From: Amyloporia xantha
Taxonomy: Eukaryota; Basidiomycota; Agaricomycetes; Polyporales; Adustoporiaceae
DNA length: 64,000 nt
Assembly (NCBI GenBank): GCA_036971615.1
Contig: JAYKKR010000028.1
Span: forward strand, 372,001-436,000
Reading direction: 5' to 3'
In this document: piece by piece, positions 32,341-42,897 of the stretch
Position numbering within the stretch: position 1 is the first letter of the stretch
How the letters are laid out: the number at the start of each line of letters is the position of its first letter
Translations under genes and position numbers: made by a program
Notes under the pieces: model-generated
The model's database searches: none
Told to the model about the DNA's origin: nothing
What the model saw: the letters and a program-made list of their open reading frames with translations, nothing else

Positions 32341-33298
32341 GTCGTAGTAAGCTGCAGAGGCAGTGGACCACAGCATCCGATCGCTCTGGCGGGCACTTTT
32401 AAGTGCACGATGGCGTGTACATCCTCCTCACGGCATAGCAAATTTCGAACGACGCCGGTAATAGCGTCCTTGTGACCTCGGTAGGTATGAGAAGCACAAG
32501 GGCGCATCTCATACGGGGGATCCTCGGCATCAGACGCGTCCTGTGGGTAGGGCGGATGGTCGTTTCTCGTGGTTATACTCGACGACTGCCTTCTCTGTTC
32601 CTGTATAATTGAACGTGCCGGGCCTGGCGGAGAAATCGCGCGACGCGCAGAACGGGCGGACCGGGGAATATCACCTGATGCCGTGACGTCACGCGACATA
32701 GTCACTCACCTAGCCTTATACCCAGTCCGAAACTAGCCTGTGCTTGGAGAACTCACGACAGGAACGCGAACGCGTGAACGGTGAAGTGGCTCCACTTAAT
32801 GTGTGCATCGGGCCCATCCATTCGAGATTAGGCCTAGAACTAGATATACGACACACCCTTTGTGCTAACCCGTGAAGACTGACCTTGCCGCTCAACGAGG
32901 CTCCAGCTTTTCTTTACGAAGCCTAGAACAAACGGAACAGTTTTGAAAGGTGCCAGGAGGTTCTTCTCACTTCGTACGGTGCGGAATCCGTGCATGGGGG
33001 CCTTCTCCGCAACACGCACGTTCGTCTTGACGGCGGGCGTAGTCAAATACGAAGTGATGTGCTGTGAGCCCAGTCTCGTCATTTTCATCTGTGATGCATA
33101 AGAGAGAACAGTTCAAAAATCTATAGCAGAAGATAACATCGACTTCTTCATTATATGATCGATGCACCGGGTACACGGGGTTTTACAATAAAGCGCAATA
33201 ATTAGGAGTTACTCATGAAACTGTCAGACCCTGCAATGTGGTTCATTCAATTTTCAGCAAGAGGAAAAGGCTATTTGACGCGCACCATAGCCAACATC
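32341..33298. other. Intergenic, GH115 promoter side
   Basis: This is 958 bp upstream of the GH115 gene and downstream of the small membrane protein gene. A minus-strand open frame continuing to 32705 merges with the GH115 exon but has no recognisable content, so I do not call it. No repeats were noticed. Confidence 0.45.
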
Positions 33299-33803
33299 TC
33301 ACAAAGATTTCGATGGCAGCGCGGGGGGTGTTTCGTCGGCGAGCTCTAGGCTTGACCCCTCCGTCAAAGCGGCCTCTGGGGCAGCATGAGCTACTCTCAG
33401 GCGATCAGCTGTAACGGCAAGTAGCTCCTCATCTCCAAGTCTTTCATGGTCTTCGTCGTAATCATCTTCGAGGAACTCTCGCGACGGCGGCCCATCATCT
33501 ATGGATAGGCGAATTTGACCGTCTTTTCGCGTCCATGTGGACAACCTTGATAGCAATTGTGTCAGAGACGAAATTGGACTTATTATATATGTCAACATAC
33601 TGGTGCGCTACTACCGTCCGGAGTAAAGAAGCACGTCGCCACAAGATGAAGAGAGCACAGCATGTACATGTCGTAAAGAGGAATATTAGAGGGAAGCTGC
33701 CCAATGGCTGGGGTTTGGGAGCTTGGCGAGGTTCTGAGCTTGACCGAGTATCAGATTGAAAACTGCATCCGGTGGAGCCATACGTACCTCCTACAGGAGC
33801 CAT
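33299..33803 (-). CDS. Small single-pass membrane protein with acidic tail
   Basis: Two exons, 33803-33601 and 33545-33299, with a 55 bp intron (donor GTATGT), 149 residues. A short Ser/Gly/Pro-rich N-terminus precedes one hydrophobic segment (FPLIFLFTTCTCCALFILW, about residues 37-55). A strongly acidic stretch (EFLEDDYDEDHERLGDEEL) follows, then a hydrophilic C-terminus. The spacing suggests a type II or tail-exposed membrane protein, with the acidic face probably cytosolic. I recall similar short agaricomycete proteins but no function. The helicase/DUF6589 element begins about 240 bp upstream of its start codon, so its promoter has been displaced or shortened. Confidence 0.7.
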
Positions 33804-33936
33804 TCCCTCGAAGCAATAAGTAGATAAAGAATGTTTTTGTCACTTCACTGTAAGTACTAAGTACACGTAGCAGAAGGGGAGCCTGATAAGATAAGATTTT
33901 GAACTTGGAATATGCACGTGACCGGAAAAGTGCGTT

Positions 33937-33952
33937 GCCTTGCGCGCCTGTA
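33937..33952 (+). repeat. Left copy of 16 bp direct repeat outside the element
   Basis: GCCTTGCGCGCCTGTA occurs here, and GCCTAGCGCGCCTGTA lies at 41046-41061, in the same orientation on the far side of the mobile element (15 of 16 identical). The copies lie outside the hairpins that abut the terminal repeats. Whether they are a relic of the target site or chance is unresolved. Confidence 0.45.
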
Positions 33953-33970
33953 GACTCGTAAAACCAGTTA

Positions 33971-34044
33971 CGTTAGAATGCACGTGAACACATGCCTTTT
34001 AGGGAGAGGGGCGGAGTGTGAAAAGGCATGTGTGCATTCTAACG
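33971..34044. repeat. Hairpin abutting left end of the mobile element
   Basis: Arms 33971-34000 and 34021-34044 are complementary apart from a 6-base insertion in the left arm. The 20-base loop (34001-34020) contains CGGAGTGT at 34012-34019. The right arm ends one base before the terminal repeat. The loop resembles that of the hairpin on the other side of the element, in the same orientation. Confidence 0.75.
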
Positions 34045-34045
34045 A

Positions 34046-34142
34046 CTGGGCAAACTGGACGCGCGTCTAGGGGGTACTGATGGGTTCCCTCTTTTGGGGG
34101 GTCGTGTGAAAACGAACTTAGCGAAATCGCAACGTTCGCGCT
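34046..34142 (+). repeat. Left terminal inverted repeat
   Basis: Starts CTGGGCAAACTGGACGCGCG and matches the reverse complement of 40890-40986 along its whole length with about six mismatches and no gap. It contains a G run (TTTTGGGGGGTCG). Identity stops sharply after GTTCGCGCT on the inner side. On the outer side AACG is shared just beyond one mismatched base, so the outer edge is uncertain by a few bases. Confidence 0.9.
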
Positions 34143-34277
34143 CTAGAGAACGCAAGGGGATTGCAACGACAGTCTGAAATCGTAGTATATTCCGACTTTC
34201 CTCGCGCCGCTTGGCTACTGTATTGTTCGCGCTGCTCGAATGTCCATCAGACCTTAAATTTGGGACATCTCGTGGGA

Positions 34278-37200
34278 TTAGAAGCCGTCCATATCAAAAG
34301 CCACGTCTTCTTCTGTGTCCAGTGAGAGTGCCTCGTCGACGCCTAGATCCTCCCCCGCCGCTTCGTCCTCATCGGAATCGTCTGTATCGCTTTCGTCGCC
34401 ACTTGACTGGGACCCCTCCTCTATGATCACCTCGACAGTATCCTCCTCAACCACATCCATCGCGGCGCCTCTCGTACTCATGTTACATGGCGTGGAATCA
34501 TTGCGTGCAGCCGCCATAGCCGGTCCAACCAAAGGCACCGTGGACCGCCGCTTTTTCAGCTGTTCAATCAACGCGTTGTATTCTCGCAACGGCTGATGAA
34601 GCGAGTTGAGGCCGACAGCAACGACATTTGGTACGACTGGTTTTTCGCCTTCTATAACGCGGCCGTGTTCCATTTTGTAAACACGATGTTGATCCAGTGA
34701 GCGTTTGAGCTCCGCAATGTCTTTGGTCAAATCCGGGGCCGCGTGCTTTGCACCTTGCTTGGATCCTAGTGCTCCGTTGATTTCCGTAGCCAACTGACGC
34801 AGTATGCTGATACAAGGCGCGATCATTGCGAGCCATTCCCAGGATGCATTACTTCCCTGTGCCTTGTAAATGGTCTGTATTGTTCCATTAACAAGAGAGG
34901 TGTCTGAGAATTGAACACTAGCCTTGATCCAGAAATTCATATGTTCCTGCAGCAGATCTACAGGAATCCATGCGTTGGCCTTGCCGGTAGGATTTACAAG
35001 CCAATTATTGATGATAATGGTCCTGAAGATTCCAGATTTCGTCACACAGCTCGCATCGAACCAGGGTACACGTACCGTAGAGGCTTGGGCCATATATGTG
35101 CCAAATTATGTACGAGAAACAGCAGCTCGTGCGCATATTTCGTACGTCCACTTCCGCGATAGCTGAGAGCGAGAACTTTCAGACACAGGATGATTCTGCC
35201 CGAATCACCCATTTTGATGGCATCCGTTAGCTCGCGGAGCACGAGAGCGTCCCGCATGAAGAGGACTGCGTTTTCAAACACCATATCACCTTTCGTGGGT
35301 GGTGCAGTGTCCGTGATGGAATCTGGAACGCTCGCTAGGTGGGTAGTCGAGCCGATCTGCTCCTGTTCAATCTGCTCAAGCTGACGCTCGTGCCGCAATC
35401 GCGAGACGATAGATGTAGTCGCAAACCTAGCAACAATCTCCTTCGCGTGCATTTGCAATTCATCAAATGTGATGTTTTCCGCATAGTCGTCCAGGCTTGC
35501 GCAGGACGTCACAAGCTCCAGACAATGCAGGATTCGAGCATACAACGACGTGAAGATGAGATCGCGGCATGTGCGATAGGACGGCAGTGAGGAGAGTACG
35601 ATTGGTTTGCGATCTAAAATGATATTGTGGAATGACAGGCATCCAGGATTGCGTGAACCAGCGCTCGGATCACCCCAGTGGGTTTCGATTGTACCATGAG
35701 TTGCCGCCATTTGGTGGTGAAACAATCCGGGCCCAAACACGGCGTACAGGTACGATTGATTAAAGCTATCATGACCAGCACGATTGCTCATAAGGGCACG
35801 TAGACGAGCAATTGACAGTTGATCACCAAAGATCAATTTCACCTTGTCGCCAAATCCTTCGGCGGCCATGTCCTGACCAAGTTCAGAGAAAATGGTTTCC
35901 ATTACTTCGGCATTCCCAGTGATTTTGGATTCATCTATATGCATAGCTGGTAGGGGATAAATCTCCGTCTTGTGCAACGGGATACTCTCTGGTGTGCATG
36001 GAAGAGTTTTGCTGACTTCATCCTTGAATTTGGCAAATATAGGACCACCGAAAAGAACAATGATACGAAGCACAGTATGCGCCATTTGCTGATGAAACGT
36101 GGCATCTTCGCTCGGTGAGAGGATGATATCGGAGGCCCGAAGCGGCGCTGCAATATTGAATGCAGTAATGAGATCAGACGTGCGCATGCAGGTAGGCTCG
36201 GCAGCATACAGTGGAAATATTGTAGCGCAGGTCCCATTTTCCTGGGAGTCTTTGCGGCCGAGGATCTGCTCGGCAGTGCGAAACATGAAGTTGATATTGT
36301 CGTAGACGTGACCGAGGGGATGGAGGCTCGCTTGAGCGCGTGCAGTAATGCGACAAGCTGCGGACAAGCGGTTGAGCAGACCGGGGCTGCGTCGCGCAAT
36401 TTTGGCCTTTGCATTCGGGGATGGTGCAAGGGTGTTGGTGGCTGACAAATTCGTCATTGCAACACTATTTGGTGGCCGAAGTCGAGTTGGAGTAAAATCG
36501 CCATCCTCAGACTGCTCAGAGTCGGAGTCAAATTCAGAACTTTCTGAATCCGAGGACGAGTCGGGCTGCCATTCGGAGTCACCCTCCTCGTCTTCAGAGC
36601 ACCTGCGAAGCACTAGTCGAGCTGGAGAGTCTTGTCCTTCTTTCTGAGAGCCTGGCCCTGCAAGTGTCGGATAACTGCTGCAAAACCCGAGGTGTGCGAG
36701 GACACTCAAAAGCTGGCGCTGGGCGCCCGTGGCATACATGTATAATCCGAGGACATGCTTGACGTAGCTGTTTTTTTGGCTGCGTTCACCTAGAAGATCG
36801 ACCATGGCGGCGCCCACGCGCTGATGAGTTTATGTGAGAAACGCGCTAATACTATGCATGTTAAGAACCAACCAAGCAGGTAGTATTTACCTTGTCATTA
36901 CGAAGTAAGGTATGTTCGGTATTGTTTTTCTTCTGCTTTGGGGTCATACTGAACTCGAACATCAGGGTTGTCATACATGGACACAGTGATTTCAGCCGTG
37001 AGTATATTGCAGTGAGACTGAATCCGAGAGCAAATGATTCATCGACCTTCATCTTGTGTGCCTGGAGAAGCCCACTGCGGGTCGCTTCGTGCCCTTCACG
37101 ACTGACAATTTCAGCCGTGTATGCCATCACCCATCCTTTCACTGTTTGACGGCCTGTCTGGCTGTTCCGCGAAGATATCCAAAAATCCAAAATTCGTTCA

Positions 37201-37835
37201 ACAAGACCAGGAATCCCAAACAGGCCTTGATAGCGCTCGCGGCCTTGTTTCGAGTCTGGATCTGACATGTACAGAACAAACTCTCCCCAGGAGAAATTGT
37301 GGCTGTGCAGAAGCAGAAGGATTTCGGTGCACACTTCCGCAAGCGACATCGGGGGATCTGGAGTTGCGAGTCCAGAGGTGTGATCTTCATCATCATTGAG
37401 TTCCCAGTGTCCCTCATGCATTGCGGCTTCATCGTCCTCGATATCCGCTTCATGAATTGCAGCTTCATATGCAGCCTGTGCGGCTTCAGATTCCTGCCGG
37501 GCCTGCTGAAGCTTCCGCTGGTCTAGCGTAGCCAGGCGTTTTCTCTGCGCTTTTCGCCGAATTGTGGTGTTGCGTTCCGCGCGAGTCCCTCTAACTGGAG
37601 ATGAGTACAAGGGCCCGCTACTTGAGGAGAAAGCTGGGATTGCGTTGATCTCACCACGCTGTGGTGTAGTCGGTTCGAGTGTGGCCTGAGCTGACTCTGC
37701 AGGAGGGCTCCTAGTGCGATCAGGGGTGGAGGGATTTGACGAGAGTTCCGAGGAAAATCGAGTAAGTCCATCGAATAATGCAGTATAGTCAATCTCATCC
37801 ATGCTGAACTGCAGCGCGGGCTCAGATTGTGCCAA
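34278..37835 (-). CDS. DUF6589 domain protein (candidate transposase)
   Basis: Three exons, 37835-36891, 36820-35076 and 35022-34278 (introns 70 and 53 bp), 1144 residues with consistent phase. The N-terminus is a Ser/Pro-rich and coiled region, then a helical block. Around residue 400 lies an acidic Ser/Asp/Glu insert. The DUF6589 core includes MHIDESKITGN, IFGDQLSIARLRALM, GLFHHQMAATHGTIETHWGD and, across the last intron, NNWLVNPTGKANAW then LLQEHMNFWIK. The C-terminus is very acidic. The invariant-looking Asp residues near 611 and 646 and the Glu near 693 could be a DDE-type catalytic set, but that is my inference; the family has no established activity known to me. Its place inside terminal repeats makes a transposase role reasonable. 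Confidence 0.88.
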
Positions 37836-37979
37836 CAGTTTGGTCGCTTGCCGAAAGGTGAAGACGTGAACAGCATCTATATCCCACTCCTAGAGGCTGA
37901 CTCGATCACGATCGAATTGGAGCTATTTGGGGTCGGGCAATTTTCTTACAGACTGGCCATCCTCATTTCAGTCTCACCC
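37836..37979. promoter_or_regulatory. Shared divergent promoter of the element's two genes
   Basis: Only 144 bp separate the two start codons, which face away from each other. Both genes must be driven from this interval, so they are probably co-expressed. No clear TATA box was seen. The helicase frame stays open upstream through this interval, so an earlier helicase start cannot be excluded. Confidence 0.6.
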
Positions 37980-40730
37980 ATGGCTCGTGGTGCTCCCCGC
38001 CGCAATCCTCCCAAGCACACATGGGCCGTCCGCAAAGAACGGCCAGATCTGCATGCGGCACGCCCGAAGCTCACTGAACAGGACACCAAAAAATTGGCAG
38101 AGCTCATGCGCGAGAGATATGGTTGGAACCTGGATCCTCGGCCGTTTCAGCTTGCTGGAGTGTGTGCTCAAATCGAAGGAGTTGATGCTATCATCCAAGC
38201 CCCGACAGGCTCAGGCAAAACAGCTGTAGCTGCAGGCCCGCATCTTTGGCCTGGAAATGAAAACAAGGTGACCATCATGGTGTCGCCTTTGCTAGCTCTC
38301 GAAGACGAAATGGTTTGGACACTACTCACTCATATTATCGGTATTAATCCAATATGTCCATTTTCACAGGTCGAGACTTTTCGGAAAGATTTTGGGCTCG
38401 ATGCGATTGCGATCAACAGCCAGAACGGAGCTTGTTCACTTGATGTTGCCCAGGTCAGAGCTACGACCACTATTGCATCTTGCTTGCACTGATCTCAATG
38501 TTATGGGTCAGAAAATCGTCTCCGGGAAATATCAAATTATCTTAGCCTCACCTGAGATGCTTCAATCTCGCACCTTCATTAATCGTGTCTTGCGCAAGCC
38601 ATCCTTCGTGCGGAGAGTGATATCACTCTTCGTCGATGAGGCACATTGCATCTCTCATTGGGGTGCTGACTTCCGTAAGAAGTATTCTTCGTTGGGTATC
38701 ATTCGTGCATTTTTGCCACGCCAAACACCTGTCATTGCTGTCACCGCTACGTTGACAGCTCGAGTGCGCCGAGATATACAAAGCAAACTCCATTTTCCCA
38801 AAATCGGCTCTCGCTTCTTGAATGTAGGAAATGACCGTCCCAATGTCACGATTGTCGTCCGAGCAGCTGAGCACCCCATGAATACCTTCGCCGATCTTGA
38901 TTTCATCATCCCTTCCATCATCAGGAATCCCGCCGACATTCCTAAGACATATATCTACGTTGATAATATAAATCTTGGCGGCGAAATTGTGGACTATCTT
39001 GTCGACAAGATCCAATTGCGAGCACAGAATGAACCCTTGGCATCCTCTCTACCACTCACGATTGTTCGCCCATATAACGCTACCTTATCGCATGAATACC
39101 GAGTTGAAGCTATGGAGCAGTTTCGCTCTGGGGATATCCGTATACTAGTATGCACCGACGCTGCGGGGATGGTAAGCTTCCTAGAGCATGAAATATCGGC
39201 ACAAGAATAACCTTGATGACTCACCTTCTACGAACAGGGCTGCAATATATCCGATATTGATATTGTCGTGCAATGGAAGCTGCCTTCAACGCTTTCCAAT
39301 TTTATACAGCGTGCAGGCCGAGCTGCGCGTGGACATGGCCGCACTGGGATGGCCATCCTCATTGTTGAACGCTCAGCATATAGCATTGACCTGAGCAGCA
39401 CTGTATTAGACAGTACTGGTGGAACAACCTCACGGAAGCCCCGAGGACGAGGCAAAGCCAAAAACAAACAGGAGAAAAAGGGGCGCAAATCGACCGCCGA
39501 GACCAAAGCAGCCAAAAATTACGCACTCACCCACGGCGTTGATCGTGGTGGCACCTCCAAAAATGACGACGTTCCCACCGGCCAACAGCCAGTCCTCGAT
39601 CCTGATGCGTCCGATGAAGGCCTCCTCGTTTTTGTGCAAAGTGTACAATGTCGGCGCAAAGTGTGGGCGAATGTTTTCGAGAGTCCCCTTGATACCTGTA
39701 AGCACATTTATATAGGGTAGCCTGTCGAGCCTGACCTCCTCTGCTAGCCCCGATAGTTCCGTGCTGTGACATCTGTCATCCAGCCCAACTCGCAAGGACC
39801 CGCCCTGGCACCATTTTACAAGAGCCCAAAGCTAAGGCGCCGCACAAAGGCATGCCAGACCTAGATGTCAAGCTTCGTCTTCATTCATGGCGTGAAGATG
39901 TCTTTCAGCGGGATCATGCGCAGGCCCAGTTTGACTCGACATCCATTCTGGACGACTCTGTGATCGAGCAATTATGCACAGGTGGCCCGATCTCTGCACA
40001 CGCCTTGGCAATGTTGCTCAAGCCCACATGGCACTGGTGGGACAGTCATGGTCAGGAACTTACAGCTCTCATGTTGTCCCTCAATATCACATATACTCCT
40101 CGCCGACGGAAGACGAAGGTCCAGCAGCCTTCGGGCCCTCCGAAAGCCTCCATGAATGTCCAGAACGTCACACACACGCAATCCACTGTCAATGTGATTG
40201 CAGATACCCAACTAGCCCATGACACTCGTCACGGACAGGCCCTAGTGCCGCCAGGGTCCGAGCACCTCCGGGAGACAGTCACCCCAAAGAAACGTCCACA
40301 TGAAGATACTATCCATGATGATCCCTCTGTTCCAATAGCTGTATCTCGTACGCCAGGTCCGTCCAGAAAGAAATCACATACACGGAACCCTGCCTCGCAT
40401 CGCATCACCAATCCTGAGTCGACTACATCCGACATGTCTTCCGTCTCATCCCAGGCTGACTCAACGCCATTTGCACAGGCCTCAGAGTCATCACTGTCAC
40501 ACGCGCATGCTGTCCCAGCATCAGTCACCTCCAATATACCTAGACCGTCGCATCCGTCCCCTCAAACACCACGCACCACCGAGCTCACAGGATCTGCATC
40601 CCGCACCCTGGGGACATACAGGCCAACACATCCCTCTGGAGGGAGCACAAAACATGCCGACTCACCAGCGGCCGACAAGCCTCCATCCTACGACGATTTC
40701 TGGGCGTCGTTCTCTCAAGCACGTCGGTAG
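37980..40730 (+). CDS. RecQ-like superfamily 2 DNA helicase
   Basis: Five exons (37980-38312, 38370-38453, 38512-39171, 39238-39697, 39748-40730), 839 residues. Motif I is APTGSGKT (residues 74-81), motif II is DEAH (about 181-184) in LFVDEAHCISHWG, motif III is VTATL, and motif VI is QRAGRAARGHGRTG. The order and the CISHWG context match RecQ. The C-terminal third departs from classical RecQ: a CCDICHP cysteine pair, a basic linker and a Ser/Thr/Pro-rich tail, with no clear HRDC. The first intron (57 bp, donor GTTTGG) is in frame; splicing restores the family sequence. It is presumed to unwind or process element DNA during mobilisation. A telomere-linked RecQ relative is an alternative reading. 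Confidence 0.9.
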
Positions 40731-40889
40731 CTGCGTTCTACGGGTGGCAGTCGGGTGCGGAGTTCAGGCTATGGCTTGACTTGGTGTTGAGGAAGCTTGT
40801 TCGAACATAGGATGATGCGAAGACAGCATGAACGAGTCGTTCGAAGAGGTCCCTGGTATTGCGGCGGTACTGGCGGTACATGTACATAT

Positions 40890-40986
40890 AGCGCGAACGT
40901 CGCGATTTCGCTAAGTTCGTTTTCACACGACCCCCCAAAGAAGGGAATCCATCAGGACCCCCTAGACGCGCGTCCAGTTTGCCCAG
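40890..40986 (-). repeat. Right terminal inverted repeat
   Basis: Reverse complement of the left repeat at 34046-34142, ending GCCCAG at 40981-40986. Differences from the left copy are a few transitions and a two-base swap near the G run. The adjoining inner sequence (GCGGTACTGGCGGTACATG) is not shared with the left end. Confidence 0.9.
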
Positions 40987-41035
40987 CCGTTTCGGTAACG
41001 TAGAGAGCGGAGCGTCGGAGTGTCAAACGAAACGG
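40987..41035. repeat. Hairpin abutting right end of the mobile element
   Basis: Arms of eight bases (CCGTTTCG, and CGAAACGG at 41028-41035) enclose a loop containing CGGAGTGT at 41016-41023. The loop also shares TAG, GAG and AAA positions with the left hairpin loop, while the arms differ in sequence. The first arm begins directly after the terminal repeat. Confidence 0.6.
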
Positions 41036-41045
41036 ATGGTCACGA

Positions 41046-41061
41046 GCCTAGCGCGCCTGTA
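41046..41061 (+). repeat. Right copy of 16 bp direct repeat outside the element
   Basis: Matches 33937-33952 at 15 of 16 positions in the same orientation. It sits ten bases beyond the right hairpin, whereas the left copy lies 18 bases before the left hairpin. Confidence 0.45.
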
Positions 41062-41274
41062 TCGCGAAGACCTTAGACCTGTAACCTCCACAACTCTCAC
41101 CTTTTCGTGCTGCTAGCTTCGAAGATTGGTAGTACACGACGAGAACTCGAATAACCTAGTTGCACTGCGTGAAGGGCGATCACAGTCGAAGACAGATTCC
41201 TGACAAGGTGTTCCACTAAAGCCGCATTCCTGTTTACAATATTGCCATCCAAGTACTCGACTCTCACTCCGAAC

Positions 41275-42897
41275 ATGGAGAATCTGGACTCTACGCAAGC
41301 ACTTGGTTGTGTTACGCCACGTCGAAAGCGTACTTGGGAGCCTGGATCAATCACCAATGCCTTTTCAGCAAAACGGCGGCGGATCTCTACGGCTTCCGTC
41401 GACTTGTCACGGGATATTGTCTCTGCGGAAGACATGCCTAGCACCAGCAAGGCGACGGTGGTATGTAGTGTCTTGCCTCTTCTTTGATCTCTTCTGAGAT
41501 TATTTCTGTCAGGCCGACAGATTCATTGCGGCACCGTCAGAGTCCGCCATGCCGCTCAACATCACCCCCCGCACAAACCGCATCGCACGACAATTCGGAC
41601 TGGCCAAAGATCGCGTGCTCAACTTTGCCGACTTCAACTCGAGCTCATCCAACAGCCCAGACCTCAACATGCACCGCACGCAGTTCCAGCAGTTGTTCGC
41701 CGCGCCCCGCAAGATCTCGCCGACCTCCTCCCTCGCGCACCTCGGCACGCGCAAACACTTCGTCCTCGCCCTCGACGGGCCCGGGATCCCGGCGGACCCG
41801 TTCGCATTCCCGCTCTCGTGGTCCTCGCGCAACGCGATCGCGGTCGCGTGCGGGCGGGACATGTACTACCAGGATCTGAGCACGCGCGTGATCACGCACC
41901 TCGGTGCGCTCGAGCGGCGCAAACACGGGCGGCTTGCGAGCATCGAGTGGTCGCGCGAGGCGCCGGGAGTACTCGCAGCTGGGACGAATACGGGCTCGGT
42001 GCAGCTGTGGGACGCGGACACGAGGGCGACGACGCGCGATTGGCGCTGTCGAGACTGGTGCGCGGTGGGTGGGATGGATTGGAATGGGGAGGTGCTGGCG
42101 GTGGGCTCGGGGGACGGGACGGTGGAGCTGTTTGATCGGCGGGAGTCGAAGGCTGTCGGACGGCTGACGATGCATCGGTGCAAGGTGTATGGGGTGAGGT
42201 GGAGTCCCGACGGGAATTATCTGGCGACAGGCGACCAGCGTGGGGTGGTGCAGTTGTGGGACGCGAGAGCGGGCCAGCCTCTGTCGAATGAGAGTAAGAG
42301 GGGCAGCAAGATGAAACACAACAGCGCTCCCGTGAAGGTGTGTCGATCGCTGCAGGTAGCCCGTCACATCGTGTTGACGTTTTCATAATTGCACAGGCAC
42401 TGGCGTGGTGTCCGTGGAAGACTAATCTGCTCGCAACAGGATCGACGTACCCAGATGGCAAGATTCGCATCTGGAACATCAATGCCACCTCGTCCACCAC
42501 GCCCCAGTACACGATCCCTGTCAACACGTCCGTGACGTCCCTCATCTGGTCGCCGCACTGCAAAGAGCTGCTCAGCACGCACGGCACATCCTGGCAGCCG
42601 CGGTCCGCGTCCACACCCAACCTCGCCTCGGGTGTGACCGTCCTGCCATCCGGCATGATCCCGATCAAGTCCCCGTACACGAACTCAATCACCGTGCACG
42701 CGTTCCCGTCGCTGAAGCGCCTGATGAGTGTGCCCGCGCATACGGCTGCGGTGGGGCACAGCTGCCTGAGCCCGGACGGGACGATGGTGTTCACGATCTG
42801 CCCTGCGGAGGAGGCGATGAAGATGTGGAAGGTCTGGGGCGTCCCCGAGAACAAGGAGCGGCGGGAGAGCGTGTTCGATAAGTGCGGGATCCGGTAG
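41275..42897 (+). CDS. Cdc20/Fizzy-family APC/C activator, copy 1
   Basis: Cdc20-family proteins carry substrates to the anaphase-promoting complex. Three exons, 41275-41460, 41513-42337 and 42397-42897, give 503 residues. The short N-terminus has a basic patch (TPRRKR, AKRRR). A C-box-like DRFIAAP opens exon 2, where the consensus would be DR-aromatic-I-P. RVLNFADF precedes seven WD-type repeats; well-formed ones include GSVQLWDADTR, GTVELFDRRES, GVVQLWDARAG and GKIRIWNI. The block ALAWCPW and HCKELLSTHG are diagnostic for Cdc20/Cdh1. The C-terminus ends in Gly-Ile-Arg, the IR tail that docks on Cdc27. An ATG at 41242 in the same frame is an alternative start. The degenerate C-box could mean a specialised, for example meiotic, activator. 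Confidence 0.88.

Follow-up and report, generated by a model that had tools for sequence, protein, structure and literature searches.

The described transposons closest to the element reported here belong to the AcademH lineage of the Academ superfamily, which reportedly goes back to Kojima (2020, Mob DNA 11:15). The element occupies positions 33951-41050 of a 64,000-nucleotide stretch of the Amyloporia xantha genome (assembly GCA_036971615.1, contig JAYKKR010000028.1, positions 372,001 to 436,000 of the forward strand; hereafter the window) and carries two genes, one for a protein of the Pfam family DUF6589 (PF20231) and one for a RecQ-type helicase. PMC3627910 lists 'RecQ Helicase in Academ', and PMC10045372 gives target duplications of 9 or 10 bp for AcademH and 3 or 4 bp for AcademX, lengths that seem tied to the encoded protein, which is a helicase in AcademH and a nuclease in AcademX. 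According to PMC10799480, copy numbers of AcademH are low in Basidiomycota, Ascomycota, and Mucoromycota, and DEAD/Helicase_C domains derive from AcademH, KolobokH or Helitron; putative non-autonomous Academ elements are recorded in part of an account of Marasmius oreades (PMC8290104). According to passages of PMC9587614, KolobokH encodes a RecQ helicase and is found only in fungi, Kolobok elements have 5'-RR termini and duplicate a 4-bp TTAA target, and Kolobok, hAT, P, MuDR, and Dada share a C/DxxH motif. Helitrons carry an HUH/Y1 Rep protein with a helicase, as stated in a passage of PMC12730594. A sequence-only reading of the window had held that no known transposon class pairs two such proteins, a claim overtaken by published accounts of a RecQ helicase in Academ (PMC3627910), of AcademH (PMC10045372 and PMC10799480) and of KolobokH (PMC9587614).

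Set beside these descriptions, the window very probably holds a low-copy fungal AcademH-type DNA transposon, in which the DUF6589 protein is most likely the DDD/E transposase and the RecQ-type helicase has been maintained. We file it as AcademH-type because its RecQ-like helicase with DEAD/Helicase_C domains, its 9-bp duplications and its low copy number agree with the AcademH statements in the source portions cited above (9- or 10-bp duplications, low copy number in Basidiomycota). This filing follows published descriptions of AcademH; the defining feature, a DDD/E transposase homologous to those of Academ, is putative here. AcademX belongs to the same superfamily and differs, in the part of the source cited, by its nuclease in place of a helicase and its 3-4-bp duplications; a Pfam scan that covered both spliced proteins, at E values up to 0.1, gave no AcademX-type nuclease. 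That scan returned DUF6589 alone for one protein and DEAD, Helicase_C, and ResIII for the other, together with a Cas3-like C-terminal model below its cut-off. The element is an apparently complete one of a known kind, and what is new are its corrected ends and a lead on DUF6589. DUF6589 has no mention in a full-text literature search that took in neither the AcademH paper nor the majority of subscription journals, and its link with AcademH may not have been reported so far. The element offers a concrete, testable role for a family of unknown function, and DUF6589-RecQ pairs could be annotated as transposons rather than as host genes.

Element ends and target duplications

Copies were sought in the same genome assembly (46.8 Mb, 60 contigs). 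Besides the window element (copy A), they include copy B at C14:620234-627276 and copy C at C25:42892-58952, and the boundaries common to them define an element of 7,100 bp, TAGACTCG...CGAGCCTA. Similarity of A to B and C extends to 33951 and 41050, where the flanking 9-bp duplications start; the left one (GCGCGCCTG, 33942-33950) is identical to the right one (41051-41059). The left terminal motif is TAGACTCGT (33951-33959, forward strand) and the right one, on the reverse strand at 41042-41050, reads ACGAGCCTA on the forward strand and TAGGCTCGT inward; when the right end is reverse-complemented, it matches the left end at eight of the first ten bases. The sequence-only reading had taken inverted repeats of about 97 bp with about six mismatches as the bounds of the element. 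Such repeats are present, with arms at 34041-34145 (forward) and 40887-40991 (reverse) that are complementary at 98 of 105 bases (7 mismatches), and the runner-up inverted pair within 33500-41500 is only 29 nt long at 72%. They are subterminal rather than terminal, because copies B and C share sequence out to 33951 and 41050 and are then flanked by duplications; the true ends lie 90 bp (left) and 59 bp (right) outside the inner repeat.

Insertion is marked by a 9-bp duplication on either side of TAGNCT ends. Copy B has a perfect 9-bp duplication, GAATCGATC, and copy C, with the same ends as A, has TGTAGTTGC. C58 holds a more distant relative (41-64% identity in the helicase matches, 32 and 47% in the DUF6589 matches) with CGTCCTCCC on both sides, and a damaged element on C18 likewise has AGTGCCCAC. 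The latter resembles a distant DUF6589-helicase element present on C1 as two inverted copies (3662006-3668326 and 3670249-3676573, 99.8% identical), whose 9-bp duplications, AGTCTGAGT and AGCGTATCC, stand in swapped positions, as expected if recombination between the two copies had inverted the intervening DNA. The insertion on C55 has an 8-bp duplication, GCTGCAAC. The length given for AcademH, 9 or 10 bp, thus recurs here as 9 bp in seven of eight two-ended insertions (identical in five, swapped in two), with 8 bp in the eighth. TAGNCT stands at both termini of A, B, C, the C58 and C55 elements and both C1 copies (C1a and C1b); the ends begin 5'-TA, with 5'-TT in C18a, on C18. Helitron insertion is not known to leave a target duplication, and a Helitron was rejected as a candidate, given the 9-bp duplications and no HUH/Y1 Rep Pfam domain in the two proteins.

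The paired genes and their products

The element-encoded helicase of superfamily 2 (SF2) is RecQ-like, as described for AcademH. Its gene (37980-40730, forward strand) has four introns, all GT-AG (38313-38369, 38454-38511, 39172-39237, and 39698-39747), and a spliced frame of 839 amino acids without internal stops. The protein matches DEAD (5.6e-21) and Helicase_C (1.5e-17) in Pfam, its closest solved relatives are RecQ, RECQ1, WRN, and RECQ5 (E 3.2e-32), and RecQ models head its NCBIfam matches, at scores under the curated cut-offs. The DUF6589 gene, which encodes the probable transposase, lies on the reverse strand (34278-37802) and has two GT-AG introns (36821-36890 and 35023-35075) and a spliced frame of 1133 amino acids, also free of internal stops. 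A probable third intron of 48 nt with GC-AG borders (34875-34922, reverse strand) would shorten the protein to 1117 amino acids; the stretch can be read in frame in A, and splicing is likely because relatives need it at the same place (a 49-nt intron in B, a GT-AG intron in the C58 element). For each of the six GT-AG introns of A, copy B has a corresponding intron with GT and AG signals, and its helicase splice sites are kept. Two complete, divergent genes had been proposed from the letters alone, and both spliced frames are indeed open and apparently intact; the predicted helicase length of 839 residues stands, and the 1144 residues given for the other frame become 1133, probably 1117.

The two genes occur together at every DUF6589 locus found in the genome. 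A PF20231 search placed DUF6589 at no fewer than six loci (on C21, C14, C58, and C55, and twice on C1), all six with a RecQ-type helicase match alongside, 1.6 to 2.3 kb separating the matched stretches. There are at least nine helicase matches, namely these six, two on C18 among remnants of the C1-like element and one on C13; counts of both kinds of locus are lower bounds. The C13 match (C13:50947-51456) is a RecQ-like fragment of 43% identity to the helicase of the element over 113 amino acids, with no DUF6589 match nearby, and may be a host gene or a relic. Gene orientation is divergent in A, B, and the C58 element and convergent in those on C55 and C1, which indicates that the pairing has outlived a rearrangement. 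Between A and B, ratios of nonsynonymous to synonymous substitution (dN/dS) are 0.116, 0.093, 0.216, and 0.292 in four of the five helicase exons (the 84-bp second exon is excluded) and 0.165, 0.130, and 0.181 in the three DUF6589 exons, the last taken from about residue 928 onward, so that some codons of the probable third intron are counted with it. Synonymous divergence (dS) is 0.14 for the last helicase exon and 0.42-0.79 for the other six. Ratios of 0.09-0.29 in seven exons imply that, as the copies diverged, the function of both proteins was preserved, and a comparison of coding sequences between two copies thus reveals purifying selection on both genes. Together with the pairing at six of six loci, this selection upholds the earlier proposal of a mobile element that owns both genes.

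The DUF6589 match is strong (residues 529-979 of 1133, E=1.3e-141) and the protein has conserved acids that suit a transposase. Seven are invariant in five aligned sequences, among which A and B are 84% alike: D169 (YDN/FDN), E292, D328 (GDQ/GDG), D507, D519, E525, and D534, numbered in the exon translation of window:35042-36805, in which the Pfam match starts at residue 220, downstream of D169. Two AlphaFold models had mean confidence scores (pLDDT) of 44.6 and 48.5, and fold comparisons gave weak matches only; in a low-confidence model D169 ends a strand, D328 follows a strand, and D519 and E525 lie in a late helix. This is the order of acids in a DDE transposase, a lead and not proof. The suggestion of a DDE-like recombinase, made in the sequence-only reading, is plausible from the invariant acids, and the AlphaFold models are too weak to establish an RNase H fold.

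Two more familiar kinds of transposon have to be weighed against these protein data. A Mutator-like or hAT-like element that acquired a RecQ gene would suit the duplications, which are 8-11 bp in Mutator-like and 8 bp in hAT-like elements. Six members of the DUF6589 alignment matched no other Pfam family at E <0.1 and, with the limit raised to 5, no Pfam transposase family (most matches above about 0.1 are discarded by the program). Between D328 and E525 all five aligned sequences lack the C/DxxH signature, the C1 row being merged from two exons with an uncertain joint; such an origin is therefore very improbable. The same missing signature counts against a KolobokH element, one in which a RecQ helicase accompanies a Kolobok transposase, reported from fungi only. 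Such an element shares with ours the fungal host and the RecQ gene, as described in part of PMC9587614, but the duplications here, 8-9 bp long, lack TTAA, and the ends begin 5'-TA (5'-TT in C18a) rather than 5'-RR. With none of the three Kolobok features in that source portion found in the window element, we give this assignment almost no credence.

Subterminal palindromes and a possible transposition route

In the AcademH-type element, palindromes lie between the terminal motifs and the inner repeat. On the left, an imperfect palindrome spans 33964-34049, its outermost arm CCAG pairing with a CTGG close to where the inner repeat starts; on the right, a palindrome of unlike sequence spans 40980-41042 with the stem CCGTTTCG/CGAAACGG. 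The left palindrome has an inverted-repeat score of 28, reached by none of 100 shuffles, and a folding z of -8.5 (0 of 200 shuffles). The right one scores 20 (0 of 100), and its folding energy is ordinary, 35 of 200 shuffles being as low. Across ten ends examined, a palindrome lies between terminal motif and inner repeat in eight (both ends of A, B, and the C58 element, and the left ends of those on C55 and C1), with the outer pair starting 9-18 nt from the terminus; at the C1 right end it lies deeper, at positions 36-80, and the C55 right end has no notable palindrome. Inverted-repeat scores of 20 or more were obtained for nine of ten ends and for none of 150 control stretches, and folding energies are much less decisive, with four of ten ends standing out. 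The two palindromes of A are unlike in sequence, and neither resembles those of the C58 element, but the location is the same, and in both A and C58 the outer CCAG/CTGG arms reach into the inner repeat and cover its first bases. Constancy of position with change of sequence suggests selection for the palindrome itself, as far as comparison of few independent families can indicate.

We know of few parallels for palindromes that interrupt an inverted repeat on both sides, and this peculiarity favours a separate transposon superfamily that came to resemble AcademH by convergence, in its RecQ helicase and its 9-bp duplications, with DUF6589 as an undescribed transposase type. The absence of DUF6589 from the literature searched (most subscription journals lay outside the search) points the same way, as does a solved-structure search with the DUF6589 profile that gave a single match, not a good one (E=0.54). 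Since the helicase, the 9-bp duplications and the low copy number all fit the AcademH statements in the source portions cited, we regard such convergence as decidedly improbable. A related, broader proposal is that DUF6589 with RecQ defines a group of transposons in which end-specific palindromes, kept in position and changing in sequence between subfamilies, split the terminal repeats, that the palindrome is the helicase substrate, and that the group is possibly its own superfamily rather than AcademH. On this proposal the ends would be extruded or unwound in the course of transposition, a step that, to our knowledge, has not been described for cut-and-paste elements; taken as a whole, we consider the proposal unlikely.

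For the AcademH-type element, the chemistry, the helicase substrate and current activity are what we infer. The DUF6589 protein would bind the inner inverted repeats as putative binding sites, cleave at the TAGNCT termini and then join these to the target with a 9-bp stagger. The RecQ-type helicase may unwind the palindromic subterminal DNA or a branched strand-transfer product, which would let the ends be cut, joined, and repaired. The route may be cut-and-paste or replicative, and the replicative or hairpin intermediate suggested in the sequence-only reading is hypothetical. A split terminal repeat, if general, bears directly on the need for a RecQ helicase, and copies with open frames and exact ends allow a bench test of why a transposon needs one.

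Divergence and later insertions

The sequence-only reading had called the element recent. Its perfect target duplication agrees with that view, but A and B are only 85% identical across 7,003 aligned bases, and the dS values given above are high in all but one exon. Divergence per 250 bp is about 10-27% over most of the element, 4.4% in the first 250 bp and 0-6% in the last 1.1 kb (window 39951-41050), with a sharp boundary within the helicase gene; recombination between copies would leave such a mosaic.

The interior of copy C is broken by two nested insertions. One is an 8.08-kb KDZ-type transposon (PF18758) with inverted repeats of about 289 bp and an 8-bp duplication, GGCATGTG, inserted within the left palindrome; the other is a 6.9-kb stretch whose open frames, in our impression, resemble a long terminal repeat (LTR) retrotransposon. 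Lone left and right ends of the same family lie at C21:204946-205023 and C1:4504391-4504432, with no partner in the stretch read.

A duplicate of the window flanks without the element occurs at C6:165327-169000 (matching window 32501-33922 and 41186-42175; 88-91% identity in two main BLAST blocks). In this diverged duplicate, similarity reaches the target sequence from both sides. At the same spot it carries another insert, roughly 1.1 kb long and bounded by short inverted ends, apparently the result of two independent insertions at one site.
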